This document shows positions 22,703-36,254 of a DNA stretch of 64,000 nucleotides, piece after piece. A program made the translations under genes and the position numbers. The DNA comes from Thalassospira sp. TSL5-1 (GTDB taxonomy: Bacteria; Pseudomonadota; Alphaproteobacteria; Rhodospirillales; Thalassospiraceae), in contig NZ_KV880637.1 in NCBI RefSeq assembly GCF_001907695.1, positions 62,001 through 126,000 on the forward strand, given 5' to 3'. The notes below the pieces were generated by a model that saw only the letters and a list, made by a program, of their open reading frames with translations, was not told where the DNA came from and did no database searches. Each line of letters begins with the position of its first letter. Position 1 is the first letter of the stretch.

Positions 22703-25354
22703 ATGGTTCGGGAAAAGATGAACATGTTTCGCCGCGTATTGATGCTGGTTCTGTTTGGCCTGTTTGTGGCATCGGCGAGCGCGGGTCTTGCGGGGGGAGC
22801 CTGGGCACAAAGCAATGGCGATGGCAATGAAGAAGCCAATGTGCTGGAAAACTCGCAAAAGACACTGGCACACTGGAACAAGACTTTCGATACGGTCGAG
22901 AAGCAACTGTCCAATTCAAGTGTGAGTGGGCGGGAACTGGCCGATAGCCGGTCGGATTTGGAGCGCGCGATTGATTCTACCCGCGATCTGGAAACCCTGG
23001 CGCAGGAAAAGCTTGAACGTTTGAATGCAGCCCTTGGCAAGCTGGGGCCCAAACCGGAAGGAGATGCGTCGGAAGTACCGGCGGTGACAGCGGAGCGGGA
23101 CCGGTTAAACAAGGAAATCGCCCGGGTTAGCGGTATTCAGAAACAGGGGGAGCTGGCGGCCTTCCGGGCTGGTGAATTGCTGGACCAGGTTGGTCGTCTG
23201 TCGCGTGAACGCTTTACCCGCCGTATTTTCAGCCGGGCCGATGTGCCGTGGGACCCTGCCGTTTGGCAAAAAAGCTGGGCCGAGGCGATGCGCCTGCCCG
23301 AAGTGGTGCGCAGCCGTTATTCCGATGTCAATCTGGCCGACCATATTGGTGACCGTCTTGAAGATGTGGCCCCGGAGCTGGTGTTTTTGCTGTTTGCCAT
23401 TGCCGCGGCTCTGATTGGTGGCGAGGTCGTGGTATTCCGGCTTTTGCCGCTGCGCTGGCGGCAGGCCAAGGGCGATGACAGGCTGGCCCTGATATCGGGC
23501 ATACGTTTCACGCTAACGGCGATTGTGCCGGGCGTGTTGCTGTTTGTGTTTTATCGCATTATTGCCTCCCAGGGCGATTTGATGGAAGGAAGCGGCGGGG
23601 AGCTGATTACACAGTTCTTTTTTGCCGCCTTGTTCCTGCTGTTTGTCGGGGCGTCCGTTCGCAGTGTGTTTTCGCCTTTTGCCCCGCAAATGCGATCTGC
23701 AGGCACGACGACGACCGGTGCCCGCGTGGTGGGCATTTCTGCCCTGTTTGCTGCTATTGTGTTTGCCTTTGACATTGTGTTGCTGCAAGGCGCGACAACG
23801 ATTGGCGCATCGCTGGATCTTGCGCTTGTGCAAAGCTTGAGCAACATGACCCTGATTTGTGCTGTGATGTTTATTGCAGCCCTTGGTGTCTGGTGGGAAC
23901 ATGATGCGATTGACGAACAGCAAAGCTGGTGGCGCAAGATCGAACGGCGCTGCCGCCGGGTTGTGCTGTTTGTGTCGGTTATTTTGCCGTTTCTGTCTTT
24001 TGTCGGCTATGTAGCACTAGCACGGTTTGTGCTGGAAAACATGATGCTGGCGCTGGCCTTTACCACCAGCTATTGGATATTGCGCGAGTTTTTGCGGGCG
24101 CTGGTTCATATCTATTTGATCAAGCCAGACGCCGAAAAGGACGAAAACGCCACCGATGCTGTGCATGGCACCCTGTATTTCTGGTTGCGGGTGACGATTG
24201 ATGCCATGATGCTGATTATCGCGGTTCCCACCGCGATCATGGTGTTTACCGACATTGCCTGGACGGATTTGATCAGCGCGGTCGAGACGGCGTTTGTTGG
24301 CATCCAGATTGGCAGCATCAATTTTTCCCTGCGTGCCATTTTAATTGGCGTATTCCTGTTCCTGCTGCTGTTAAGCCTGATGCGGTTTTTCCAGCGGATG
24401 CTCAATACCCGTGTGCTGCCCAATACCAAGCTGGATCAGGGTTTGCAGCATTCGGTGTCGGCCATATTCGGCTATGTCGGCATTGGCCTTGCGGTGCTGA
24501 TTGCGGTGTCAGCTGCCGGGGTTGACCTGTCAAACCTTGCCATTATCGCCGGTGCTATTTCCGTTGGTATCGGTTTTGGCATGCAGAGTATTGTGAACAA
24601 CTTTGTATCTGGCCTGATTTTGCTGATCGAACGGCCCATCAAGGTGGGCGACTGGATTGTGGTTGGGGCAGATCAGGGCTTTGTGAAGGATATTCGCGTT
24701 CGCGCAACCGAGATCGAGACCTTTGATCGTTCATCGGTGGTGATCCCCAATTCCGAACTGATTTCAAACCGGGTTCTGAACTGGACGCTGAAGGAACGGT
24801 CGGGGCGTGGCATTGTGCCAATTGGCGTTTCCTATAGTGCGGATGCCAACCAGGTGCGTGATATTTTACTCGAAATGGCGGATAAACGCCGTGAAATTCT
24901 AAGCTATCCGGCACCGCAAGTGGTGTTTATCGGTTTTGGCGAAAGTTCACTGGATTTTGAATTGCGTTACTTCCTGCGCGATATTGGCGATGTGCTGGCG
25001 GTGGCAAGCTCTATCCGGTTCGAGGTGTTAGAGCGGTTCCGCGAAGAAGGCATTGAAATTCCGTTTCCGCAGCGTGACGTCAATTTGCGCGATATTGACC
25101 GCCTGGAAGATGCCATTCGCAGCCTTGCCCGCCAGAATGGCAGCAAGAAAGATCAGGCGGATAATCATCCGCCTGAAGCAGAGGCCGATAGGGAACTGGT
25201 TGAGGGTGGCAAAACGCCACCAGCCGATGGCGCGGGTGCGGCGGGTCCCCAGCTCGATAAATCACAAACGGCGATCCCGTCAGATTCCTCGACATCCGAA
25301 ATACCGGGCAGTGCCACCCCCGCGACCCGGGAACTGCCAGACGGAGACCGTTAG
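22703..25354 (+). CDS. Large MscS-family mechanosensitive channel
   Basis: About 883 residues. It begins with a signal peptide (hydrophobic core LMLVLFGLFVASASAG, cleavage near AWA), then a periplasmic coiled-coil region (about 30-180, rich in Glu/Arg/Lys), about nine to eleven membrane helices, and the MscS core near 630-800. The pore-lining and beta-domain start (GAISVGIGFGMQSIVNNFVSG, then ERPIKVGDWIVV) is typical. A Pro/Ala/Asp-rich tail ends it. It resembles the large MscK/YbdG-type channels that protect against osmotic downshock. The start is uncertain: GTG 22628, ATG 22703 and ATG 22718 are all in frame. It is a single gene. Confidence 0.88.
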   Translation: MVREKMNMFRRVLMLVLFGLFVASASAGLAGGAWAQSNGDGNEEANVLENSQKTLAHWNKTFDTVEKQLSNSSVSGRELADSRSDLERAIDSTRDLETLAQEKLERLNAALGKLGPKPEGDASEVPAVTAERDRLNKEIARVSGIQKQGELAAFRAGELLDQVGRLSRERFTRRIFSRADVPWDPAVWQKSWAEAMRLPEVVRSRYSDVNLADHIGDRLEDVAPELVFLLFAIAAALIGGEVVVFRLLPLRWRQAKGDDRLALISGIRFTLTAIVPGVLLFVFYRIIASQGDLMEGSGGELITQFFFAALFLLFVGASVRSVFSPFAPQMRSAGTTTTGARVVGISALFAAIVFAFDIVLLQGATTIGASLDLALVQSLSNMTLICAVMFIAALGVWWEHDAIDEQQSWWRKIERRCRRVVLFVSVILPFLSFVGYVALARFVLENMMLALAFTTSYWILREFLRALVHIYLIKPDAEKDENATDAVHGTLYFWLRVTIDAMMLIIAVPTAIMVFTDIAWTDLISAVETAFVGIQIGSINFSLRAILIGVFLFLLLLSLMRFFQRMLNTRVLPNTKLDQGLQHSVSAIFGYVGIGLAVLIAVSAAGVDLSNLAIIAGAISVGIGFGMQSIVNNFVSGLILLIERPIKVGDWIVVGADQGFVKDIRVRATEIETFDRSSVVIPNSELISNRVLNWTLKERSGRGIVPIGVSYSADANQVRDILLEMADKRREILSYPAPQVVFIGFGESSLDFELRYFLRDIGDVLAVASSIRFEVLERFREEGIEIPFPQRDVNLRDIDRLEDAIRSLARQNGSKKDQADNHPPEAEADRELVEGGKTPPADGAGAAGPQLDKSQTAIPSDSSTSEIPGSATPATRELPDGDR

Positions 25355-25473
25355 CATGTCGTGAGGTGATGAGCGGTCTTGGAGAATGCCGGTTGGTAAA
25401 ACTGACTGGACCAGGAAGGCTGGCTCAGATGAACTGGAAATGGAGGAGGTGAAATGTTTAGGCCTCCTTCATT

Positions 25474-25887
25474 TTATAGGCGGGGTGTTTCACTTGCTGT
25501 ATCAGCGGCCAGTTTGGCGGTGATTTTTTGGCCCATCGGTGCCATCAGGTGGCGTTCATCCTGGCCAAGCCAGCGCATTTCGGCAATTTCGCGCGACGGG
25601 GCCAGGGTGCCGGAATAATCGGCTTGAAAACAGGTCATGTGGACCTGGGTATCATCGGGCATGTTATGGCCGTGCCCGGAAAAAATGCCGATTTCCGTGA
25701 TGGTGTCGGACACCAGTTCCACACCTAGTTCTTCGCGGATTTCCCGTTTCAGGGCGATGATCGGTGTTTCCCCCGCATCGATTTTGCCGCCAGGCAGGTA
25801 AAACCTGTCGCGCCCGTGGGTGCGGACGGAAAGTGTGCGGCCGTCTTTTTGCAGGATCCAGTTAACGGTCTTGATTGTTTTGGTCAT
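25474..25887 (-). CDS. Nudix hydrolase
   Basis: A 137-residue Nudix-domain protein. The box G-x5-E-x7-RE-x-x-EE-x-G is complete at residues 34-56 (GKIDAGE ... REIREELGV), so it should be active, hydrolysing a nucleoside diphosphate linked to some moiety. The substrate cannot be predicted. ATG 25887 is preferred: the open frame runs upstream to 26286 but the extension is low-complexity translation of the downstream terminator region. It is monocistronic; 119 bp separate its stop from the convergent channel gene. Confidence 0.87.
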   Translation of the reverse strand: MTKTIKTVNWILQKDGRTLSVRTHGRDRFYLPGGKIDAGETPIIALKREIREELGVELVSDTITEIGIFSGHGHNMPDDTQVHMTCFQADYSGTLAPSREIAEMRWLGQDERHLMAPMGQKITAKLAADTASETPRL

Positions 25888-26257
25888 GGTGGGCTTACCG
25901 GTTTTTGATGCAACCAACCGGATAAAAACCGGCCAGGTGACGAGGTTGTATTGGGTGCGTTCATGTATGTTTATGATCGAACCATAACCTAATCTATCCC
26001 GGCTTGTGCGAGCAAGGGCAAGGCGCAGGCGATTGATGGGAAATGAGGGGATTTGTAGCGTAAGTAAGGTGTGTGCCAGTGGGCAAGTGAAACTGCGCAA
26101 ACCGGCATTTATCACGATATAAAAAGCCCGGCCCGAGGGACTATGGGGAGTTGTGCGGGCCGGGAGGGCGTTCCGGATTGGGGTCAGAACGAGCATGAGT
26201 ACCGCCACGGGATGTTTGGGGTGCGGGCGGCATCCGGCATCGTTAATTGATTGATTA
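25888..26257. other. 370-bp gap between the Nudix gene and the fibre locus
   Basis: Holds a clear terminator (26121-26164) for the fibre locus and the Nudix promoter region. The translations through it are unconvincing. Nothing else recognised. Confidence 0.6.
26121..26164 (-). terminator. Terminator after the small secreted protein gene
   Basis: Perfect nine-base arms CCCGGCCCG (26127-26135) and CGGGCCGGG (26156-26164) with a 20-base loop, followed on the minus strand by CTTTTTATAT. It ends the hfaB-like/repeat-protein/small-protein run. Confidence 0.85.
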
Positions 26258-26701
26258 TTAGTTGCCGGACAGGTTTTCGAGCGCATCGCTCAAATTCGTG
26301 GTGTTGGTTTGTGTATTTGAATTTGCGGTTTGATCCCCGACGGAATCCTGCCCGGTATTCACCGTGCCGTTGGAATTATTCAGAATGACGCAGGAGGAGT
26401 TGGCTGTCGCACTTGCTGTTCCGCCGCCACCACCACAGACCAGTTGGGTAAGACTGTTTGTGCCGGAAGATGCGCTGCCAGTGCCATTTCCGCTGAGCAT
26501 GCCTGATTCTGCCTGTTTCATGACCACTGCCAGAGAGGCGCGGTTCTGAACAGGGGCAGACCAGGGTTTTTCAAACATTTGTGCCTGTGCCGCAAAGGAC
26601 CCCAATGCCGTGATGAAGGTAGCAAGGACGAGTAATTTTGCCACCTGCCGGGAACGGGGATGCCGGCGTAAGGCCGGTTGTGACCGGGAGACCGTAAACA
26701 T
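26258..26701 (-). CDS. Small secreted Ser/Thr/Asn/Gly-rich protein (HfaA-like position)
   Basis: A 147-residue protein with an N-terminal Arg-rich stretch and signal peptide ending AAQA near residue 41. The mature part is low in charge, with GGGGG, and rich in Ser, Thr, Asn and Gln toward the C-terminus (TANSNTQTNTTNLSDALENL). It includes a pair of Cys about 15 residues apart. This composition fits an exported, amyloid-like or beta-rich surface subunit. It lies third after the CsgG/HfaB-like gene and the repeat protein, the place where small holdfast-anchor or curli subunits are found. I do not recognise it directly; AAGGAA eight bases upstream supports the start. Function by context only. 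Confidence 0.5.
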   Translation of the reverse strand: MFTVSRSQPALRRHPRSRQVAKLLVLATFITALGSFAAQAQMFEKPWSAPVQNRASLAVVMKQAESGMLSGNGTGSASSGTNSLTQLVCGGGGGTASATANSSCVILNNSNGTVNTGQDSVGDQTANSNTQTNTTNLSDALENLSGN

Positions 26702-26730
26702 CGGAATTTCCTTTTGTCGGATATGAAGGG

Positions 26731-26756
26731 AAAGAGAGGGCCTTGGCCCTCTCTTT
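26731..26756. repeat. 26-base perfect palindrome between two secreted-protein genes
   Basis: AAAGAGAGGGCC (26731-26742) meets its exact complement with only the two-base centre unpaired in RNA, 15 bases after the repeat-protein stop and 30 bases before the small protein start codon. On the minus strand it ends in TTT, so it may be a weak or partial terminator reducing the downstream gene. Confidence 0.75.
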
Positions 26757-26770
26757 GACGGCAGGTATTA

Positions 26771-28042
26771 TCAATTGTTGATCGCAGGAGCCCCAACCTT
26801 GATCGACAGGTTGTTGCCGATGGCGGACGCAGCACCATTGATCACGGGCTGATCAAGCTTGCCAAGGTTGGTATAGTTGTTCAGGTTGACGTTGTAGATG
26901 TTGCTTGAGGCCGAAACATCGGCATAAGCGAACTGCGTAACGTCGGCAATGAGAGCAACATCAGGCTGGATGCCGTCATTGTCGTCATCGCCGCCATAGT
27001 TGCCGCCACCGTGACCGGGGAAGAACGCCGTCGACATGGATGGGGTTTCATCGGTCGGGGTTTCGGTTTCGGTTGCCGTAACAGGCTTGACCGAAATGTT
27101 CATGTTGTTGGCAAGGGCCGTTGCGGCGGCATCAACCGAAAAGTTGTTGATGTTGTAGGCATTGGACGTTGCCGTTACCGATGCAGGCGCAATGTCGCCA
27201 TTCAGGGCCAGCATGGTCAGACCCAAAGCACCGGAAAGGTTGGTGTTGGGGCTGGTTTGTGAACCCATACCATAGCTGTTCGTTGCCGCATCCCCGCCAC
27301 CCGAGGACTGGCCGTTGCCGTCAGCCGCATTGAAGTTGAATTGCCCGGCGTGAACATTGACCATTCCTTCACCTGAAATGGAGGAGTTGTTGGCCAGTGC
27401 GGTTGCCGTGGCATTGAGCGAAGGCAGTTCCGTGGTCGCATCATAGCTGTCGGTCGGCTGGATATTGTCGACCGTTACGGTAAAGATAACACCATCGGTT
27501 TCACCGTTACCAACCCCGTCAGCGGCGAACGGATCATATACCGCACCGGTAACCTTGATGTCCGCGCCATCAAAGGCACCACTGGCTGATGTCACGCCAC
27601 CTTCGGAATCCGCGCTGTTGCCCGCCGGACCATTGGCGATGCCAAAGGAAGACGGGTTGGTGCCCTGGCCAGCAGCAATGCCATCGACATTGCCAGATGT
27701 GGTTTCGCTAAAGTCGGCCACATCCGGGTCAAGGCTGGTTGAGGAACTGTTTGCCCAGGCTTCGCCTTCAAAGGTAAAGGTGCCGGATTGTTCGGTCATG
27801 ATCGGCTGATTGTTCTTCACATCATGGACGTTCGATGAAGCCGAAGTGCTGCCGAGTTTTTCCTGCAAAATTTCGACCATTGAAAAATTGGCAGGATCGT
27901 CAATATTAAGGTCAATATCGACATTGGTGTCGACTTTGCCGTTCCAGGACCATTCGACATTGTCAAACGCATAGGCCGGCACCCCGGTTGCCAGTACACC
28001 TGCCGTAATCAGGGTCCCCAGCAACAGTTTTTTCTTAAGCAT
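26771..28042 (-). CDS. Secreted repeat-containing fibre or anchor protein (HfaD-like position)
   Basis: A 423-residue exported protein with a signal peptide (residues 1-25, ending AYA). It contains three copies of an Asn/Ser-rich motif, S-A-x-SN-x-Y-N-(V/I)-N (near 65-78, 288-302 and 375-390), and three of AATAL-x-NN-x-S-I (209-223, 303-318 and 401-416). The last two copies of each form composite units. The body is very rich in Asn, Ser, Thr, Gly and Asp, with no Cys. This is a beta-rich, possibly amyloid-like surface protein. Start at 28042: AGGAG lies nine bases upstream; a GTG at 28051 overlaps the previous stop but has no spacing. It follows the hfaB-like gene directly. Role as adhesin or anchor subunit is inference. 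Confidence 0.6.
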   Translation of the reverse strand: MLKKKLLLGTLITAGVLATGVPAYAFDNVEWSWNGKVDTNVDIDLNIDDPANFSMVEILQEKLGSTSASSNVHDVKNNQPIMTEQSGTFTFEGEAWANSSSTSLDPDVADFSETTSGNVDGIAAGQGTNPSSFGIANGPAGNSADSEGGVTSASGAFDGADIKVTGAVYDPFAADGVGNGETDGVIFTVTVDNIQPTDSYDATTELPSLNATATALANNSSISGEGMVNVHAGQFNFNAADGNGQSSGGGDAATNSYGMGSQTSPNTNLSGALGLTMLALNGDIAPASVTATSNAYNINNFSVDAAATALANNMNISVKPVTATETETPTDETPSMSTAFFPGHGGGNYGGDDDNDGIQPDVALIADVTQFAYADVSASSNIYNVNLNNYTNLGKLDQPVINGAASAIGNNLSIKVGAPAINN

Positions 28043-28047
28043 TTCGC

Positions 28048-28908
28048 TCACTCCTGTTGATTTGCTTTGTGGTCTTTGGATAAAGAAGAAAACCGCTCTA
28101 GATGCGCACTCATGTCATTGGCTTTGGAAAGTGCACATTCCGGTGTTTGCGGCAGCCCCAAGAAATCTGTCATGATTTGATAGACCCCCATTTCTGCAAC
28201 CGCTCTGACGCCAAGCTGTAGCGGCTCGTTCCGGATGCGCCCGGCGTCAAATTCGACAAGATTTATTCCGAAGAAACGAAACACGCCGGCACTGACCTCG
28301 TAGCCCATGATCTGCTTTTGCAGCGAGCTGACATAGCGGACGGCGAATGATTTTGAATCGATGACCCGAAGATCCATTGCCACATTGATAACAACGGTTC
28401 GGCCACCCCCGCCAATGCCGCGCACATAAAGCTGCGCACCTTCGCTGAGGATGTTGTAATTGAGTTCCGTTACTGCCCCGACGAGGATGAAATCCGATGC
28501 GGGGATTTTGCCATATTGTTCGATATTGCGGGTTAAACGGCCCTGTTCGGAGAGGCGGACTTCAGCAAGCGGAATACGCAAATCAAAGCGTTCCACCAAA
28601 TTTGCCCTCCCCGACTTATAAAGGGCGCTCATGACCATTTCGCTGACACCCTGGGAAACGGCGTGGCCGTTTTCGTCGTAATTGAGCTGACCGGTTTTGT
28701 CGGCAATTTCGCCAACAGCAAAAATCGGAAGCCGGTTTGCCGGTACATCTTTGAGTTCGCGCAGACAGGCGCTGTAGGGTGTTTCGTTGTCAGTAACCGG
28801 AAAGGAGATCATGGGATCAATGCGGTTCTGTGAATATGAACCGGGTCCCGGCGCGCAAGCTGCGAGGCTTGTCGCGGCCAATGCGGTTGCTGCTAATTTG
28901 CGAAGCAT
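28048..28908 (-). CDS. hfaB: CsgG/HfaB-family outer-membrane secretion lipoprotein
   Basis: A 286-residue lipoprotein with lipobox LAAC at residues 16-19. The mature part follows the CsgG/HfaB family (PF03783): RLPIFAVGEIADKTGQ near 55-70 (compare CsgG V-x-x-V-Y-N-I-x-DETGQ), SEMVMSALYKSGRANLVERF near 85-105, GAVTELNYNI near 140-150, and a beta-hairpin segment of alternating hydrophobics. The family forms an outer-membrane channel that exports curli or holdfast-anchor subunits. Start 28908 is chosen for AGGA just upstream and the lipobox; an earlier ATG at 28944 is in frame. It heads the run with the repeat protein. CsgE and CsgF homologues are not evident, so HfaB is the closer model; the symbol is tentative. 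Confidence 0.72.
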   Translation of the reverse strand: MLRKLAATALAATSLAACAPGPGSYSQNRIDPMISFPVTDNETPYSACLRELKDVPANRLPIFAVGEIADKTGQLNYDENGHAVSQGVSEMVMSALYKSGRANLVERFDLRIPLAEVRLSEQGRLTRNIEQYGKIPASDFILVGAVTELNYNILSEGAQLYVRGIGGGGRTVVINVAMDLRVIDSKSFAVRYVSSLQKQIMGYEVSAGVFRFFGINLVEFDAGRIRNEPLQLGVRAVAEMGVYQIMTDFLGLPQTPECALSKANDMSAHLERFSSLSKDHKANQQE

Positions 28909-29203
28909 TTTTCCTGTCCCTGCTGAAGTCTTCCCCAAAGTCAAACGGCGTTTTGATTGGCGTTTGTCTTTGGTGACTATGACACAGTGGGATTTATGTT
29001 CTAGTCTACATAAGTGATTATTGGATGGGTAAAATTGATTAGCAATATTATATCAATTTTGTTCATTTTTTATTTTTAGGTATTGCGATAATTATTTCGA
29101 GATACCCCATTTTATATAGGAATATGCTATCGGGCGTATTGCCATGTCGGCAGAAAGTGCATTGAATCAAATAGCTTAACTTTCTGCAGGAAATAATATC
29201 GAT
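28909..29203. promoter_or_regulatory. AT-rich divergent control region of the fibre locus
   Basis: A 295-bp gap between the divergent hfaB-like and LuxR-type genes. It contains a perfect nine-base inverted repeat, AAAATTGAT (29031-29039) and ATCAATTTT (29052-29060), with a 12-base spacer, centred 136 bp from the hfaB-like start and 158 bp from the LuxR start. It is a good candidate operator for one of the three LuxR-type regulators. Confidence 0.5.
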
Positions 29204-29884
29204 ATGAGCATGTCCCAAGAAATTCACGATACAGATCGCCAGATCCTGGCTATCGGTTTTCATGCCGCAGATATTGAATTACTGATCGGTAATAATACGG
29301 GGTGGCGCGCGGTGGCAGACCCCGATTTTCGATTGGCCTGGCGTGGTGAAGGGCAATATTGTGCCGCATTGATTGCCCAGGGACATAACGAGTTATTAAG
29401 CCATTCGCAAATGCGGTATCTGTCGCATGTTGCGCGACAAATTCCCCTGATCACTTTTATCCCTGACGGAAATTATATTCCCGGAAGGCGCTTGGACCGG
29501 GCCAGTTCAGCCCTGATGTTTTCGTCAACCGCGTCTTTGTTAACAGAAATATGCGAACTCGCACGCGAGGATTGCTGGATTTTACCGGGTAAAATGGACA
29601 GCGTTTTTTTGTTGCTGGGCGATAGTGCCGAGGGAATGGCGGCGCGATTGTCCGATCGTGAGTGGTATTTGCTGCATGAAATTCAGGATGGAAAAAGCAA
29701 TGGCGAAATCGCCCGGGATGTCGGCAGCAGCGAGGCCGAGGTAAAGGCATGGCTTGTTGATGTGTTTGGTGTCTTGGGGGTGGCAACCCGCACCCAGGCC
29801 GCGATTGTATCGTTTTTTATCGAAAGGCATTTGCGTGATGCGCCTGGTGGGGGCGTTCGTATTGCCTGTGAGGATGGGGAATGA
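29204..29884 (+). CDS. LuxR-type helix-turn-helix regulator with unusual N-terminal domain
   Basis: A 226-residue regulator. The C-terminal LuxR-type helix-turn-helix (about 143-200) includes SDREWYLLHEIQDGKSNGEIARDVG and TRTQAAIVSF, but diverges from the consensus, with AEVKAWL where T-V-K-x-H-V is usual. The first 130 residues look receiver-like in length but show no acidic pocket or phosphorylated Asp motif. It faces the hfaB-like gene across an AT-rich gap with a perfect inverted repeat, so it is the best candidate local regulator of the fibre genes. GCAGGA about 16 bases upstream is a weak site for the start. It might instead be a CsgD-like integrator of other signals. Confidence 0.7.
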   Translation: MSMSQEIHDTDRQILAIGFHAADIELLIGNNTGWRAVADPDFRLAWRGEGQYCAALIAQGHNELLSHSQMRYLSHVARQIPLITFIPDGNYIPGRRLDRASSALMFSSTASLLTEICELAREDCWILPGKMDSVFLLLGDSAEGMAARLSDREWYLLHEIQDGKSNGEIARDVGSSEAEVKAWLVDVFGVLGVATRTQAAIVSFFIERHLRDAPGGGVRIACEDGE

Positions 29885-30018
29885 TGGGGCGCTGCTACCG
29901 ACGTTGGGATGAGTTCCGGGGCATTGGTATTATTGAAGCATTTAGTCCTGACTTTGAGCGTAAAGCAGACCATATCGATTTTAAGGGACGCAACCTTTTG
30001 TAAAAGGATGACGATATC

Positions 30019-30555
30019 ATGAATAGGTTTATGACGTTCAAAAAGGTCGTGCGGTGCTATGGTTTGCCCGTGCTGGTCAGTGTGCTGTTTACGGTCGGGT
30101 TTTCAGCCGACGGACAAGCACAGTTCAATAATAAACCCTACTCATTTAATACGCCAACCGGCGCACCGGGCATGAGCCGGGCGGCGCGTCAGGCGATTAT
30201 AAATGACCAGATTTATAACATTCGCCCTGACAATATGTTGCGTGATGCGAATGGTGGATTGCTGTCGATTGAAAAAAGCAAGGGGGGGACGGCGATTGTT
30301 CGCACGGCCGATGGCCAGGTCCTGCCCGGCTTTAGAGGAACATCGATTTCGGGCGGCGGTGTCTCGGTTGGTGTTTTTAACGCCTACTTTATGGCCGCCG
30401 ACAGTGATCGTCGTTATGCACCTCTGCAAAGCATGGCAGCGACTTACACGATCAATGGCTGGATAAACCTGTTGGGGCGTGATGGCCGGTCATTCATTCC
30501 GCCGGTAACAGCATCGCCTGTTGATGGCTGGACCTGGATGGTTTCGGGGCTTTGA
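30019..30555 (+). CDS. Secreted protein of unknown function in the fibre locus
   Basis: A 178-residue protein with a signal peptide (hydrophobic core LPVLVSVLFTVGFSA, cleavage near GQAQ at residues 33-36). The mature part starts FNNKPYSFNTPTGAPG and has a Gly/Ser-rich beta stretch (GTSISGGGVSVGVFNAYF) near 110-127 and an aromatic C-terminus (DGWTWMVSGL). AAGGA ten bases upstream supports ATG 30019. No family recognised. Its position beside LuxR-type regulators and the HfaB-like export gene, and its N/Q/G-rich mature N-terminus, suggest a further exported subunit or accessory factor. A GC-rich hairpin follows at 30607-30635. Confidence 0.5.
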   Translation: MNRFMTFKKVVRCYGLPVLVSVLFTVGFSADGQAQFNNKPYSFNTPTGAPGMSRAARQAIINDQIYNIRPDNMLRDANGGLLSIEKSKGGTAIVRTADGQVLPGFRGTSISGGGVSVGVFNAYFMAADSDRRYAPLQSMAATYTINGWINLLGRDGRSFIPPVTASPVDGWTWMVSGL

Positions 30556-30606
30556 CCGCTGCCGGATGATGTGTCGGCCGGTTTATGATCAATCCCCCTA
30601 AAAAGG

Positions 30607-30635
30607 AACGCCCCGGTCATGATGGACGGGGCGTT
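30607..30635. terminator. Hairpin between two convergent genes
   Basis: Perfect nine-base arms AACGCCCCG and CGGGGCGTT around an 11-base loop, 51 bases after the secreted-protein stop. On the minus strand it is followed by CCTTTTTAG, on the plus strand by AATCC, so it is better placed to stop the LuxR-type gene at 30782. Confidence 0.6.
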
Positions 30636-30781
30636 AATCCGGGGTGAAAGAGCGTTGGCAATACGAAGGAACCTGGTCTTTGCATGCCTGTTTGCTTTTA
30701 CGAGAGGTTTGTTTTTGCAAAATAGCGAATAGCTTTCGGTTTATGTGTTGCAACCAGAGAGGTCACACCGTGTGCATTTTT

Positions 30782-31477
30782 TTAGCTGAGGGCCGCGCTG
30801 TAACCATGATGGCGGGGTTGGCTGCGTAATGCCCAGATCGCAGCCTGGGTGCGGTTATCAACTTTGATTTTGCGCAGAATGCTTTTGACGTGCACTTTAA
30901 CGGTTGCCTCGGAGATATTCAGCCGAATGGCAATGCGCTTGTTGGAATCTCCGCTTGAGAGGCATTCGAGAATTTCCTGTTCGCGGGGGGAAAGGTCGAT
31001 ACCGAGAATATCGATGGAATCCAGTTCAAGCGACGACATGAAGTGGAAGCGCTCCATCATGATCGACGCCAGGTTTGACGGGTAAATCTTTTCGCCTTCG
31101 GTAATCAATTGGAACGCCAGTTCTATGGCTGTTTGGGAAACATCGTCCAGCAGAGCACCGTTTACACCCAGATTAAACAATGCAAATAGGTGTTCTGCGT
31201 CATATTCATGCGCCAGAGTGATGATTCTGACTTTGGGATTGCTGGCACGAAAAGCGGCAAGAGATGTGATCTGGGCCTGGAAATCGTCGATGCTAACCAG
31301 CACGACATCAATGGTGCGATTGGGGGGAGTTACGGAAATCAGGTCGTCGAGATGCGGGGCATTGATGGTTTCCGTATTTTTGCTATGTGTCAGTAGGCTG
31401 GTAAGGCCTGTTCGTAACAAAAGGCTGGAATGAACAACTGCAACGAGTGTTTTTGCAGTTCCATTTGTCGTCTGCAT
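30782..31477 (-). CDS. CsgD-like LuxR-family regulator with degenerate receiver (paralog A)
   Basis: A 231-residue NarL/LuxR-type regulator: receiver-like domain (about 8-125) plus helix-turn-helix (about 160-225; LSPREQEILECLSSGDSNKRIA, SEATVKVHVKSILRKI). The strand that should end in the phosphorylated Asp reads DVVLVSIDD, placing Ser at the Asp position, and the usual K in G-x-L-L-K is Asp (NGALLDDVSQ). It should therefore not be switched by classical phosphorylation. The same layout is known for CsgD and VpsT, which answer to other signals. It is paralogous to the gene at 32044. Start at ATG 31477 (AGGGA upstream); TTG 31531 with GAAGG is an alternative. Confidence 0.8.
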   Translation of the reverse strand: MQTTNGTAKTLVAVVHSSLLLRTGLTSLLTHSKNTETINAPHLDDLISVTPPNRTIDVVLVSIDDFQAQITSLAAFRASNPKVRIITLAHEYDAEHLFALFNLGVNGALLDDVSQTAIELAFQLITEGEKIYPSNLASIMMERFHFMSSLELDSIDILGIDLSPREQEILECLSSGDSNKRIAIRLNISEATVKVHVKSILRKIKVDNRTQAAIWALRSQPRHHGYSAALS

Positions 31478-32043
31478 TGGTTTTGTTCCCTGTTTGGCTG
31501 TTCTTTGTTTTGCCGGAATAGACGTTTGCAAGATAAATCCTTCCGGCCGGACTAACTGCTTATATTTTTTGAGTAAAATTTGGCGCTTTTGGATGAGATT
31601 CCTGCGCTTCTTAATCAGAATATCTGTCTGATGCCCTTAAATCCATTCTCCTGTAGGGTTATATTTTCTTTTTGACTATCTATTGTGGGTAATATTTAGG
31701 GCGTTTTGTCATGATATTTTGGGTTGTGGTTTTTCTTTTCTATGAATCCGGTTGTTTAGAACAAGAAGCGTGTATTCCTCCGCAACGTTAGCGGAGAAAA
31801 TTTTCGGTGCGGAAGCAATGAGCTTGATTTTCAAAGGCGCTGGTAAAATGAGGTCATTGCGGCATCAGTGTGCCAGTGTGTGACGCACTGATGCGACAGA
31901 GGACATGATTCCAGACAGTGAGGACTGTAAAAACCGTCTTCCATGTGGTTTACGGGCGGCGAACCGGGCCGTGCTGACGGTAGAAGGCTGCACCTTCATT
32001 TTTTCCAACGGTGGTTTTACAACATGGAATTGTGCCTGCGCCG
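31478..32043. other. 566-bp AT-rich gap between two regulator paralogs
   Basis: No supported ORF. Contains a perfect nine-base inverted repeat GCATCAGTG (31862-31870) with CACTGATGC (31886-31894), and a small hairpin CTCCGC/GCGGAG at 31778-31796. The AT-rich part near 31560-31740 probably carries the promoter of the 30782 regulator. Confidence 0.5.
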
Positions 32044-32778
32044 TCAAGCGGTAAGCTGGTTACAGCGGTGCGGAGGCTTGTCTTGCATGATGAAAAAAGG
32101 CTGCCCTGAAAGATTTGCCCTTTGACGTAGAGACCAGATGGCCGCCTGGGTCCTGTTGGAAACGCCGATTTTTCTCAGAATGCTTTTGACATGTACTTTG
32201 ACCGTTGCTTCGCTGATATCGAGTTCATTGGCGATGGCCTTGTTGGACTCGCCATGTTCCAGGCAATACAAAATTTGCTGTTCACGCTGTGACAGATTGA
32301 CATCTTCGTCATTCAGGTCCGGTGACGTGGCGGCGCAAGGTGAATGAATGCGCGAAAGCAGGATTTGCGCCATATTAGATGGAAACAGCTTTTGGCCTTC
32401 TTCAAGCAGGCGGAAGGCCAGTTTCAGCGTTCGTTGTGAAACATCGTCAAGTAACGCGCCGTCAATATTCAGCTCGAATAAAGCAAATAGCTCTTCGAGT
32501 TCATAACGACGCGACAGGGCGAGAATTTTGGTTTTTGGATAGCGGGCACGCAAGGATGCAAGTTTTATTGTATCCTGTTTGATATCATCAACGTTGAACA
32601 GAATTAGATCTATTCGGTCGTTTTTTGGAACACGTTTGCAAAGCTCATCAAGAGACATTGCATCAGTTACGAAGATGTCCTGGAAATCCGCAAGAACTTT
32701 TTGTAGTGCATGTCGCATCAGCTTGATGGGATGCACAATGGCAATATATTGAATGTTGCCTTCTTCCATTAACGTCAT
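32044..32778 (-). CDS. CsgD-like LuxR-family regulator with degenerate receiver (paralog B)
   Basis: A 244-residue regulator closely related to its neighbour at 30782. They share GALLDDVSQ, the following LAF-x-L-x-EG-x-K-(I/L)-(Y/F)-PSN segment, and SEATVKVHVKSILRKI in the helix-turn-helix. Here the expected phosphorylated Asp is Asn (DLILFNVDD), so this receiver too should be insensitive to phosphotransfer. It has a longer basic C-terminal tail with two Cys-free, Gln/Pro-rich stretches. The pair looks like a tandem duplication now separated by 566 bp. The ATG at 32778 follows a 710-bp noncoding stretch, so control from a distance or a long leader is possible. Likely regulates surface-fibre or biofilm genes; this is context inference. 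Confidence 0.8.
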   Translation of the reverse strand: MTLMEEGNIQYIAIVHPIKLMRHALQKVLADFQDIFVTDAMSLDELCKRVPKNDRIDLILFNVDDIKQDTIKLASLRARYPKTKILALSRRYELEELFALFELNIDGALLDDVSQRTLKLAFRLLEEGQKLFPSNMAQILLSRIHSPCAATSPDLNDEDVNLSQREQQILYCLEHGESNKAIANELDISEATVKVHVKSILRKIGVSNRTQAAIWSLRQRANLSGQPFFIMQDKPPHRCNQLTA

Positions 32779-33488
32779 GGTTCCCCCAAAGTAATAGTAA
32801 GTGCTTCGTTCCTTGTTAGAGTGATCCGTGCTTCTTTTTTTATTTTGGGAGCTAGTCTTGTTGAGAGTTCGCTACCCTTTTCGCCTTGATAGGTTATGCG
32901 GTGACTTGTGATCGATCCATAACTATAGGGAGTTAAAGCGTGCCGAGTTTGCCCCATTGTGGGTAGAGAGCATGAGTCTTTTTTTTCTTTATTTCAGGCA
33001 TATACGTAAGGATATGTTTTTTGTGTGTTTAAAAAATACATTAGTTTTTCTAAATAAATGAGTGCAGTTTGCATTCGTTTAGAATCGGCGCTTTTTAGTT
33101 TCTTTTGCCGGATTCTGTTAAATTTCATTTAACTTCATGTATTTAATGGGGTGCTGGAATGGAATATTGCGATTTTAAGTCTTTGTTTCAGTATTATTTT
33201 CAGCCCTATACCGAGAGGTTGGAATATTCCTGGTGATATACTGATTGCGTCCCATTGCTGTACTTAAGGTGAATTTAAACCTACCCTAAAGAGACGTCAT
33301 CTGGCCGGATGTTTTCGTGTGGTTAGCCGCAAAGAGCGCCGATTCTTCCGGTTTTGGATCAAAATAGGTAGGGCTATCAACGCATAAGTATTAGCCCCGC
33401 TGAGGCAGGTTTTGGGGAGTTGACCCAAAATTTTTCCGCTCAGACAGGGCTTTGGAGAAATGCTTTACCGTTTTTGGTCAGGAATGGT
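32779..33488. other. 710-bp AT-rich noncoding stretch with a hairpin-forming segment
   Basis: No ORF of quality. The first 200 bp probably include the promoter of the 32044 regulator. At 33371-33397, GGGCTA and TAGCCC form a six-base stem with a 15-base loop, within a segment that also contains a short ATAG/CTAT hairpin. There is no obvious gene on the plus strand after it. I considered a riboswitch but could not fit any known consensus. Confidence 0.45.
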
Positions 33489-34328
33489 TTAGATAATGGC
33501 GACGTCCAGGCCAATATCAACTGCCGGGGCACTTTGAGTAATACGTCCGACGGAAACATAATCCACGCCGGTTGCGGCAATATCGGCGATGGTATCCAGC
33601 CGAACACCGCCGGATGCCTCGGTTTTGCTGCGGCCATCGACAATGGCAACCGCCTTGCGCAGCATATCCGGGCCCATATTATCCAGCAGGATGATATCCG
33701 CCCCGGCATCGACAGCTTCGCGCACCTGATCGAGGGTGTCGCATTCCACCTCGATTGTTGGTAGGTTGGCAGCCTTTGCCATTTCCACGCATTTGGTGAT
33801 CGAACCAACCACGCCAATATGGTTGTCCTTGATCATCACGCCATCATAAAGGCCCATGCGGTGGTTTTGCGCGCCGCCCATGCGGGTGGCGTATTTTTCC
33901 ATTTTACGCCAGCCCGGCAGGGTTTTGCGGGTATCAAGCAGCTTGGCCGATGTTTTGCCCATTGCCTGCACATAGGCGCAGGTGGTGGTGGCAATGCCCG
34001 AAAGATGCTGAAGGGTATTAAGGGCGGTGCGTTCGGCAGTCAGTATACCGCGCGCCGGACCTTCGATCACGGCAAGGATCGATTTGGGGTTCAGCGTATC
34101 ACCGTCATTACATTTTTTGTCGATTTTGGCATCGGGCACCATCTTGCGAAAACATTCCAGCGCAATATCAAGCCCCGCAACCACAATGCTTTCCCGGGTT
34201 TCAAGGGCAACGCGCAGGCGGGCCTCTTTGGGAACGACATTGTCTGATGTGATGTCACCTGTGCCGATATCCTCGGCAAAGGCACGGTCGATAAACTCGG
34301 AAATTTCGCTTTGGGTCAGGTCGGTCAT
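33489..34328 (-). CDS. nadC: Nicotinate-nucleotide diphosphorylase (carboxylating)
   Basis: A 279-residue quinolinate phosphoribosyltransferase, the step from quinolinate to nicotinate mononucleotide in NAD synthesis. It shows LDTRKTLPGWR (about 134-144), the HRMGLYDGVMIKDNH segment (about 155-169), and VECDTLDQ near 200. These are the family's substrate-binding Arg/Lys/His segments. It lies downstream of nadA on the same strand, but with a terminator between, so the two genes probably have separate or partly coupled transcription. nadB is not in the window. Confidence 0.95.
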   Translation of the reverse strand: MTDLTQSEISEFIDRAFAEDIGTGDITSDNVVPKEARLRVALETRESIVVAGLDIALECFRKMVPDAKIDKKCNDGDTLNPKSILAVIEGPARGILTAERTALNTLQHLSGIATTTCAYVQAMGKTSAKLLDTRKTLPGWRKMEKYATRMGGAQNHRMGLYDGVMIKDNHIGVVGSITKCVEMAKAANLPTIEVECDTLDQVREAVDAGADIILLDNMGPDMLRKAVAIVDGRSKTEASGGVRLDTIADIAATGVDYVSVGRITQSAPAVDIGLDVAII

Positions 34329-34402
34329 GGGGGCGCCGTATTTTGGATCAGACAGGGATCATGCAAGGTAGTATGACTGGATGCGGTGTGTGCCGTGCTG
34401 CG

Positions 34403-34434
34403 AAAAAACAGGCCCTGCAGGATATGCAGAGCCT
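34403..34434 (-). terminator. Terminator after nadA
   Basis: Ten-base arms AGGCCCTGCA (34410-34419) and TGCAGAGCCT (34425-34434), one G-U pair in RNA, loop of five, followed on the minus strand by GTTTTTTCG. It separates nadA from nadC. Confidence 0.85.
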
Positions 34435-34446
34435 GAATCTTCTGGC

Positions 34447-35481
34447 TCAAACAGCGGGTTCGGCTGCAGCCTCTTTTTTCAGCGGAATACCTTTTGACAA
34501 TTCCAGCATCCGTTCCAGCGGTTTAACGGCCTGAAGGCGCAAATCTTCGGGCATGACGATTTGCGGGCCATTATTGACCAGGCACAGATACAGCTTTTCA
34601 AGCGTGTTCAGTTCCATGAATGGGCAGTTATTGCACGCACAGCTACCATCTGCCCCGGGAACCGGGATGAAGGTTTTGTGCGGGGCTGCCTTTTCCATCT
34701 GGTGGATGATGTGGGGTTCGGTGGCGATCAGATATTTCTGGTCGGGACCATCAATCACATATTCCAGAATGGCGCGGGTGGAGCCGATCTGATCAGCATG
34801 GCGCAGGATGCCGTCATGGCATTCCGGGTGGGCGGCAATTTTGGCATCGGGATGCTGGGTTTTCAGGCGGATCAGTTCGCGTTCTGAAAACTGTTCATGT
34901 ACGATGCAGGATCCCTGCCACAAAACCATATCACGGCCGGTTTTCTTGGCAAGATAGCTGCCCAGATGGCGGTCCGGGGCCCACAAAATCGGTTGGTCCA
35001 GTGGGATCTGGTCGATAATTTCAGCCGCATTTGACGAGGTGACGATAATATCGGACGCGGCTTTTACCTCAGCCGAGCAATTGATATAGGTGATCGACAC
35101 ATGGTCCGGGTGCTGTTCGCGGAATTTGCGAAAGGCCTCTGGCTGGCAGGAATCCTCAAGCGAGCATCCTGCCTTTGAATCGGGCAACAGAACGGTCTTT
35201 TCCGGGCTGAGAATCTTGGCGACTTCGGCCATGAAACGCACCCCGCAAAACACAATGACATCGGCATCGGTTGCCGCCGCCTTGCGCGACAGGTCCAGGG
35301 AATCGCCAACAAAGTCGGCCAAATCCTGAATTTCGCCATCCTGATAATAATGGGCCAAAATGATCGCGTTCTTCTCTTTCTTGAGGCGTTTGATTTCGGC
35401 CTCAAGATCCAGCGTCGGATCAATCTGGGTTTCAGACATTGCACCGGCATTTGCCTCGGCAATGGTGGTAATCTGGTTCAT
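34447..35481 (-). CDS. nadA: Quinolinate synthase A
   Basis: A 344-residue [4Fe-4S] enzyme that condenses iminoaspartate with dihydroxyacetone phosphate to make quinolinate. It contains [21 protein letters not shown] (about 40-60), [14 protein letters not shown] (about 78-91) with the first cluster Cys, a second Cys in the INCSAEVKA segment, and the C-terminal [12 protein letters not shown]. These are the three cluster-binding regions of NadA. It provides the substrate for NadC just downstream. The length is standard. Confidence 0.95.
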
Positions 35482-35701
35482 GGCGTTGTCTCATCTCGCC
35501 TTGTTGCAATCCGGAGGTAAGCAACGGGACCGGATATTGCAAGTTGATGACTGTTTGAGAACCTGAATATCGTTATTGGGCCGCGATGGCAAGGGAATGG
35601 GGGAATTATAGAGGATCTGGCCCTATTGGGAATTCGCCAAGACAATCAGGTAATCTTGTATCTGATAAATCTTTCATCTGACCGGTTTTTTCCTTATGAT
35701 T

Positions 35702-35718
35702 GTGTTAATTATTAATAC
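35702..35718. promoter_or_regulatory. Palindrome upstream of the second parD-like gene
   Basis: GTGTTAAT and ATTAATAC around a single T, one mismatch in eight, ending directly before the AGGAG ribosome site of the antitoxin gene. The position is typical for antitoxin autorepression. It may overlap the -10 region. Confidence 0.5.
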
Positions 35719-35731
35719 AGGAGTTTGCATC

Positions 35732-35974
35732 ATGCCACGGACAACAAGCGTGACAATTGGATCGCAACTTGACGAATTTGTGGGGGAGCTGATCCAGTCC
35801 GGGCGTTATGGCTCGACCAGTGAGGTTGTGCGTTCTGCTTTGCGATTGCTCGAACGTCGTGAAAAACAGATGCAGTCTTTAAGAAGCGCGATTGAGGCCG
35901 GCGACAAGAGTGGTGAAAGCGATTTGTCGTTGCGTGATATTGCCGCACAGGTGAAACAGAAGCACGATGTATAG
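35732..35974 (+). CDS. ParD-family antitoxin (system 2)
   Basis: An 80-residue ribbon-helix-helix antitoxin: TTSVTIGSQLDEFVGELIQSGRYGSTSEVVR is the ParD pattern, followed by RSALRLLERRE and an acidic, flexible C-terminus. AGGAG eight bases before ATG 35732 fixes the start. It overlaps the toxin gene by eight bases, so translation is coupled. The gene pair is flanked by the nadA promoter region and the PuuA-like gene, with no mobile-element remnants. A near-perfect palindrome sits in front of it. Confidence 0.88.
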   Translation: MPRTTSVTIGSQLDEFVGELIQSGRYGSTSEVVRSALRLLERREKQMQSLRSAIEAGDKSGESDLSLRDIAAQVKQKHDV

Positions 35975-36254
35975 ATTATCGGCTCTGGCCGTCGACGATT
36001 TCAGAGCGATCTTTGAATATACTTTGCTTAATTTTGGTATGCCCCAGGCAGATAGGTATGTTGATGATCTTGAGAACATTTTTGCTCTGTTGTCAAAATC
36101 GCCGCATATCGGAGCTGAACTTGCCGACATTTCTGTCGGATTGCGCCGTCATCCTCATAAACATCACACCGTTTATTATCGTAAAACCAGGGATGGCATC
36201 TTCGTTGTAAGGATCCTTCACCAGCACATGGACGTTGATCCGTCCTTGTTGTAA
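35967..36254 (+). CDS. ParE-family toxin (system 2)
   Basis: A 95-residue ParE-type toxin: YRLSALAVDDFRAIFEYTLLNFG at the N-terminus, GLRRHPHKHHTVYYRKT in the middle and FVVRILHQHMDVDPSLL at the end match ParE, whose usual target is DNA gyrase. It overlaps the antitoxin by eight bases. Different enough from the toxin at 9584 to be an independent system. The gene ends 46 bp from the convergent PuuA-like gene. Confidence 0.88.
   Translation: MYRLSALAVDDFRAIFEYTLLNFGMPQADRYVDDLENIFALLSKSPHIGAELADISVGLRRHPHKHHTVYYRKTRDGIFVVRILHQHMDVDPSLL

Follow-up and report, generated by a model that had tools for sequence, protein, structure and literature searches.

The window, i.e., the whole 64,000-nucleotide stretch of Thalassospira sp. 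TSL5-1 DNA that was analyzed, contained at 26258..33488 a seven-gene locus including a CsgG/HfaB-family lipoprotein gene (the presumed export pore), a secreted repeat protein gene and a small secreted protein gene. The locus probably belongs to the curli/holdfast export family, in a branch of the HfaB type, and would export a surface fibre or anchor, the role to which its kinship points. An export module was supported by the conservation of the pore-repeat-small trio, by homology of the small protein to HfaA, by membership of the pore protein in PF03783, by an N-terminal motif shared between secreted families, and by the precedent of HfaA, HfaB and HfaD. An earlier reading of the same DNA, made by a model from the letters alone (the sequence-only reading), had proposed an hfa/curli-like export module lacking csgE and csgF. 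That interpretation was supported: the locus appears to encode an export module of the HfaB type, one client of which is HfaA-like, and is unlike curli in the partners tested.

Kinship and conservation of the trio

The pore protein matched the Pfam family CsgG (PF03783) with an expectation value (E) of 1.2e-26 and 93.8 bits (cut-off 20.8), placing it inside the family named by the sequence-only reading. Its translation contained a lipobox-like LAAC. A profile of the pore family aligned to solved CsgG over profile positions 49-253 (E 7.5e-22), and one phage family in PHROGs matched the pore protein strongly (222.5 bits). The nearest named relative, T. profundimaris S25-3-2, had 98% identity in the pore protein. 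Among 387 genomes of the class, CsgG-family proteins were found in 74 and proteins over the cut-off of the HfaB equivalog NF037935 in 20. Window-type loci scored at least 306 bits with the window pore protein and the other loci fetched by then at most 51, in a comparison set that contained no true HfaB proteins; true HfaB fell between the two, at 153-194 bits with the family profile.

A tree of 100 pore proteins, including ten of the CsgG type and drawn with its root at the midpoint, placed the window type, true HfaB and HfaB-like intermediates opposite the ten CsgG-type proteins on a branch with 99/92 support. True HfaB and the intermediates joined window-type proteins from Sphingomonas (L112) and Caulobacterales (L124) at 99/100; in this phylogeny, true HfaB falls inside the larger window-type family. 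The window-type family may be the wider one from which the holdfast anchor of Caulobacter came. That direction is only inferred, because true HfaB formed a single group at just 85/68, the program warned of long branches meeting, and the root was a midpoint.

Scanning a species-genome collection with two peptide patterns yielded at least 78 loci (from the best 80 of 81 matches). Eight were dropped: three had no recognized open reading frame (ORF; L108, L132, L141) and five were more divergent or cut (L135-L138, L140). Among the 70 window-type loci kept, a repeat gene was downstream of the pore gene in 67 and a small gene in 68; the exceptions were at contig ends (L082 and L087) or contained no recognized repeat gene (L110). 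Clean profiles (alignments A3 and A4) gave the same counts, and within loci contributing no sequence to these profiles the repeat gene was found in 35 of 38 and the small gene in 37 of 39. The 70 loci are not independent and formed 54 clusters at 90% pore identity, of which 53 contained the repeat gene and 54 the small gene. Halomonadaceae accounted for 11 loci; all 11 had both partners and none had the 30019 family or a LuxR gene. The combination of genes, called unusual in the sequence-only reading, was therefore found to recur, mostly in Alphaproteobacteria. One alphaproteobacterium (G072; L051) contained five pore copies, three of them in tandem with repeated repeat and small genes.

The small protein had no Pfam or NCBIfam match at E<=1 and a weak PHROGs match (E 0.0063). 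A small-protein profile was built without members from 16 hfa test loci, i.e., loci with true or intermediate HfaB, and run on their ORFs of at least 70 amino acids. The top 10 matches (E 1e-8 to 1e-3; next match 0.31) were all the gene directly upstream of hfaB, in 10 of the 16 loci. With signal peptides stripped, nine matches remained at E<=1, again all the gene upstream of hfaB, the last two at 0.037 and 0.49. Profile-profile comparison with HfaA scored 40.3 for full and 29.0 for mature sequences, and none of 150 column shuffles reached either score (best 20.4 and 16.7). By profile, then, the small protein is homologous to HfaA, for which eight proteins chosen because they adjoin HfaB served as the reference (L174 and L187 being near-duplicates).

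The repeat protein also had no Pfam or NCBIfam match at E<=1 and a weak PHROGs match (E 0.0035). The AxAxGNN motif was common to the repeat protein, HfaD and HfaA. Comparison with HfaD by hhalign varied with the alignment cut: 3.1% for all members, 89.6% for a subset and 0.9-1.5% once columns had been filtered, the score then still beating all 150 shuffles but over only 14-16 columns. With the subset profile, no HfaD was recovered from the 16 hfa loci. With the first repeat profile, a single HfaD was matched (E 1.8e-4), and an unrelated ORF scored nearly as well (2e-4); this first profile contained a Sel1-type protein (L050 1887-2852, with a copy in L100) and a wrong-frame ORF (L054 5271-5909). 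The Sel1 copy sits in the 69-member repeat list, outside the position rule used for the locus counts. An AlphaFold2 model had long strands, a mean predicted local distance difference test score (pLDDT) of 66.9, a predicted template modeling score (pTM) of 0.55 and 108 residues at or above 90. The best Foldseek match was FapC, a functional amyloid, at E 0.07 and probability 0.41, too weak to be accepted.

A third secreted protein, encoded at 30019-30555, belonged to a family that was divergent from the pore gene in 32 of the 70 loci; all 32 had a LuxR/NarL-type gene nearby and 21 a divergent one. The protein had no Pfam or NCBIfam match at E<=1 and no match among sequences of the Protein Data Bank at E<=10. 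Its AlphaFold2 model was weak (mean pLDDT 64.4, pTM 0.40), and homology to CsgF was rejected (hhalign 0.1% on mature sequences). An unbounded profile iteration drifted into the small-protein family through a shared N-terminus; family counts were therefore taken from a bounded profile with small and repeat matches excluded.

Most 30019-family members began their predicted mature sequence approximately as Q-x-N-N-K-P-[YF]-S-F, and many small-family members as Q-M-x-x-x-P-W-x-F. Using P[WFY], a pattern picked after the alignments were seen, matches within the first 16 predicted mature residues were counted in 33 of 35 30019-family proteins, 44 of 70 small-family proteins, 1 of 69 repeat-family proteins (one of the 69 being the Sel1 contaminant) and 6 of 152 other signal-peptide-like ORFs, this control set having been drawn by a crude signal-peptide rule and some cleavage sites having been misplaced. 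A looser pattern gave 33 of 35, 54 of 70 and 7 of 152 for the 30019, small and other ORFs. P[WFY] also occurred in 9 of 11 proteins at the HfaA position over a wider stretch, a width with no control. Without signal peptides, the small and 30019 families aligned only over the motif (17 columns, 45.5%). The motif is a possible export or docking signal, a reasonable guess because CsgF N-terminal residues line the CsgG lumen (PMC7304575). Within the TSL5-1 genome, a search for unlinked clients at E<=1 with the 30019 profile matched only the locus itself, and the small-protein profile matched the locus and one further protein at E 0.44.

Proposed working and alternative readings

In the proposed scheme, the lipoprotein would build a ring pore of the CsgG kind across the outer membrane. 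Two proteins, the HfaA-like small one and the repeat protein with its predicted beta-rich structure, would leave by this pore and form a fibre or anchor at the cell surface, the exported protein probably being sticky and possibly amyloid-like. The 30019 protein, where present, may be a further client or a pore accessory using the same N-terminal motif, and the three local LuxR/NarL-type regulators would switch the gene set on. The precedent is in Caulobacter, where HfaA and HfaD are located on the cell surface and depend on HfaB for their arrival at the outer membrane (PMC6707917).

Several observations weigh against this reading. The pore protein scored 175.6 bits with the HfaB equivalog of NCBIfam, below the curated cut-off of 300, and by that measure is not HfaB proper. 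The small-protein profile missed 6 of the 16 hfa loci; five of these showed no HfaA-like ORF at the expected place, and L172 did. Homology of the repeat protein to HfaD was not established, the results being unstable. The models of the repeat and 30019 proteins were low to middling in confidence, and Foldseek returned no match for either at E<=0.001. Curlin repeats (PF07012) were found in 0 of 10 genomes searched, TSL5-1 included, so it is kinship with HfaA that prompts the word amyloid. The motif counts carry the late choice of pattern and the crude control described above, and with the looser pattern the repeat family rose to 22 of 69.

The locus resembled HfaA-HfaB-HfaD in having a CsgG-family pore gene beside genes for an HfaA-homologous small protein and a repeat-rich secreted protein, the two pores lying in the same larger clade. 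It differed in the lower HfaB score, in the unproven HfaD homology, in its local LuxR/NarL genes and 30019 family, and in a range reaching Halomonadaceae and Vibrionaceae plasmids. Gene order was hfaB-repeat-small here; among the 16 hfa loci, it was hfaA-hfaB-hfaD in the six for which both neighbors could be named. That Thalassospira makes a Caulobacter-like polar polysaccharide, anchored by a true holdfast anchor encoded here, would fit the HfaA homology and the nesting of HfaB within the window-type family; this is nevertheless unlikely given the HfaB score, the different gene order and the presence of the trio on a Vibrio phage-plasmid and in Halomonadaceae. We know of no holdfast in the hosts of that phage-plasmid or in Halomonadaceae.

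Curli, or type VIII secretion (CsgABCDEFG), shares with the locus the CsgG fold family, a LuxR-type regulator adjoining the pore gene and a small candidate subunit. A curli system with diverged parts could also account for the CsgD-like scores of the two NarL-type regulators (72.5 and 74.4 bits with NF007505), which recall csgD adjoining csgG, yet these scores, and the 29.3 bits of the 29204 protein, were under the cut-off of 250. No CsgE, CsgF or curlin match was found by Pfam in the locus proteins at E<=1 (CsgE was not searched genome-wide), which for csgE and csgF agrees with the sequence-only reading. CsgF (PF10614) was not found in the TSL5-1 genome and was matched in 7 of the 387 class genomes. 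Together with the separate branch of the CsgG-type pores and the missing curlin repeats, these results already largely refute diverged curli, which is very improbable. Alphaproteobacterial csgH-type operons are likewise functional-amyloid genes without csgE and csgF (PMC3521004); they carry curlin-repeat CsgA/B and CsgH, whereas the window locus had no curlin repeat (CsgH was not searched for). The pore might instead export other cargo (a peptide signal, an enzyme or a polysaccharide), with the small and repeat proteins as plugs or periplasmic partners. CsgF, a secreted partner that lines the CsgG pore with its N-terminus (PMC7304575), offers a model for this, and the shared motif might then serve plugging and not export. 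Such a role is doubtful, since HfaA and HfaD are surface-located in Caulobacter (PMC6707917) and since, in a crude clustering of neighbors, the next commonest family occurred in 18 loci versus 67 and 68 for the two partners.

Returning to export of a surface fibre or anchor, a bolder version has somewhat less than an even chance: HfaB-type secretion would be a system separate from curli, mobile and widespread, whose unrelated clients carry a common NKP[YFW]S-like mature N-terminal export or docking signal and of which the Caulobacter anchor is a late, specialized use. The holdfast is described as the strongest known adhesive and its tie to the cell as unresolved (PMC6707917). A simple three-gene relative outside stalked bacteria and on plasmids suggests how the holdfast anchor may have originated and could serve as a tractable model. 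The common motif, if true, would be a testable export signal for HfaB-type pores, parallel to the N-terminal docking of CsgF in CsgG (PMC7304575). CsgG-family pores are used in nanopore sequencing (PMC12844561, PMC13397529), so a distinct pore branch is of practical interest. A description of the pore-repeat-small trio was not found in the one open-access library searched, subscription journals being outside the scope of the search.

Plasmids, phages and distribution within Thalassospira

A 90.9-kilobase (kb) element of V. alginolyticus HNV2 (NZ_CP082309.1; L200, L205) contained the trio, with profile matches of 348, 180 and 111 bits. The part opened (44661-90854) was annotated with baseplate, tail, tail-fibre, PAAR, GH108 hydrolase, replication and partition genes, and by our own reading of these annotations the element is a phage-plasmid. 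Photobacterium plasmid pPGC22 also carried the trio; transfer genes were annotated on it, yet its PLSDB type was non-mobilizable. Four further V. alginolyticus plasmids had a pore match.

Jumbo phages of Caulobacter and Brevundimonas contained a pore-like gene at 39-42% identity and accounted for 9 of the 10 phage records matched. In CcrColossus, Kabachok and CcrPW (L211, L212, L213), the gene downstream of the pore matched the HfaD profile (E 1e-8 to 1e-12) and a small secreted upstream gene matched the small-protein profiles weakly (E 4e-9 to 0.01), giving the gene order of the holdfast anchor operon. The upstream gene of these three phages was not found by the mature-only or HfaA profile, so its identity as HfaA draws mostly on position. 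The CcrPW pore gene was labelled a transcription activator, probably a misannotation. Viral contigs contributed five loci at 28-29% identity; L206 and L207, the two checked, had no profile match other than that of the pore.

Within Thalassospira, 6 of 29 genomes carried the pore gene, TSL5-1 included, always at the same site insofar as the contigs show it, which bears out the description of the locus as accessory. Two of the other five carriers (L012 and L013) had all seven genes in the same order, and a third (G023) had all seven split over two contigs that show both halves of the site. The remaining two (L014 and L015) had six genes: each lacked one of the NarL-type genes, and the repeat gene of L015 had diverged strongly. 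The genes mscS and nadC adjoined in 28 of 28 genomes with both on one contig. The gap between them was 5.8-10.0 kb in five genomes with the pore gene; without it, the gap was 474-565 bases in 14 genomes, 1.4-1.6 kb in eight and 3.2 kb in one (G027). The locus is therefore present or absent at a single site. Across the genus, pore identities varied roughly in step with those of nadC, a pattern suggesting vertical inheritance and repeated loss. In TSL5-1, a NUDIX gene (window 25474-26286), with homology only in its last about 145 codons, flanks the locus toward mscS; it adjoins nadC in G007 and in three locus-free genomes opened, the comparison covering L015, L196, L197 and L198. The site has been rearranged, since the side of the NUDIX gene differs between genomes.

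Genes and regulators of the locus

All seven genes reported by the sequence-only reading were confirmed (Table 1). That reading had assigned the regulators and the 30019 gene to a divergent side; this holds for the LuxR-type gene at 29204 and the 30019 gene, both on the plus strand, while the two NarL-type genes lie on the minus strand with the pore (hfaB) gene.

Table 1. Genes of the Thalassospira sp. TSL5-1 locus, in window coordinates.
Feature	Position	Strand	Remarks
Small secreted protein, candidate fibre/anchor subunit, HfaA-like	26258-26701	-	By profile; predicted mature N-terminus QMFEKPWSA
Secreted repeat protein, AxAxGNN-type repeats, HfaD position, predicted beta-rich	26771-28042 (ATG 28042)	-	
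CsgG/HfaB-family outer-membrane lipoprotein, presumed export pore	28048-28908 (ATG 28908)	-	PF03783
LuxR-type regulator, GerE domain, no Pfam receiver match	29204-29884	+	Divergent from pore gene
Secreted protein of unnamed family ("sec")	30019-30555	+	Predicted mature N-terminus near QFNNKPYSF
NarL/CsgD/VpsT-like regulator, Ser at NarL phospho-Asp position	30782-31531 (start probably 31477)	-	
NarL/CsgD/VpsT-like regulator, Asn at NarL phospho-Asp position	32044-32778	-	

The later start of the 30782 gene is probable because aligned relatives begin 18 codons downstream. Both NarL-type proteins also matched VpsT and NarL structures. In NarL, the column occupied by Ser and Asn in these two proteins holds the phospho-accepting Asp; this Asp was kept in 31 of 81 aligned LuxR/NarL proteins of these loci, so phosphorelay control is not general. 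A divergent LuxR gene was found in 23 of the 70 loci and any LuxR/NarL-type gene nearby in 52. Other regulators neighbored some loci: sigma-54 activators in all four Halomonadaceae loci checked and hybrid histidine kinases in two others checked.

No Rfam match over gathering scores was found at 25000-34500, and promoter- and terminator-like sites at the locus were not above shuffles. Around the regulators, 31532-32043 and 32779-33488 contained no recognized genes, and this part of the window had a guanine-cytosine content of 47-49% versus about 55% and several inverted repeats (e.g., 33081-33096/33331-33346). Beyond the locus, at 35696-36254, two overlapping small genes resembled a ParD/ParE-type toxin-antitoxin pair by translation alone.

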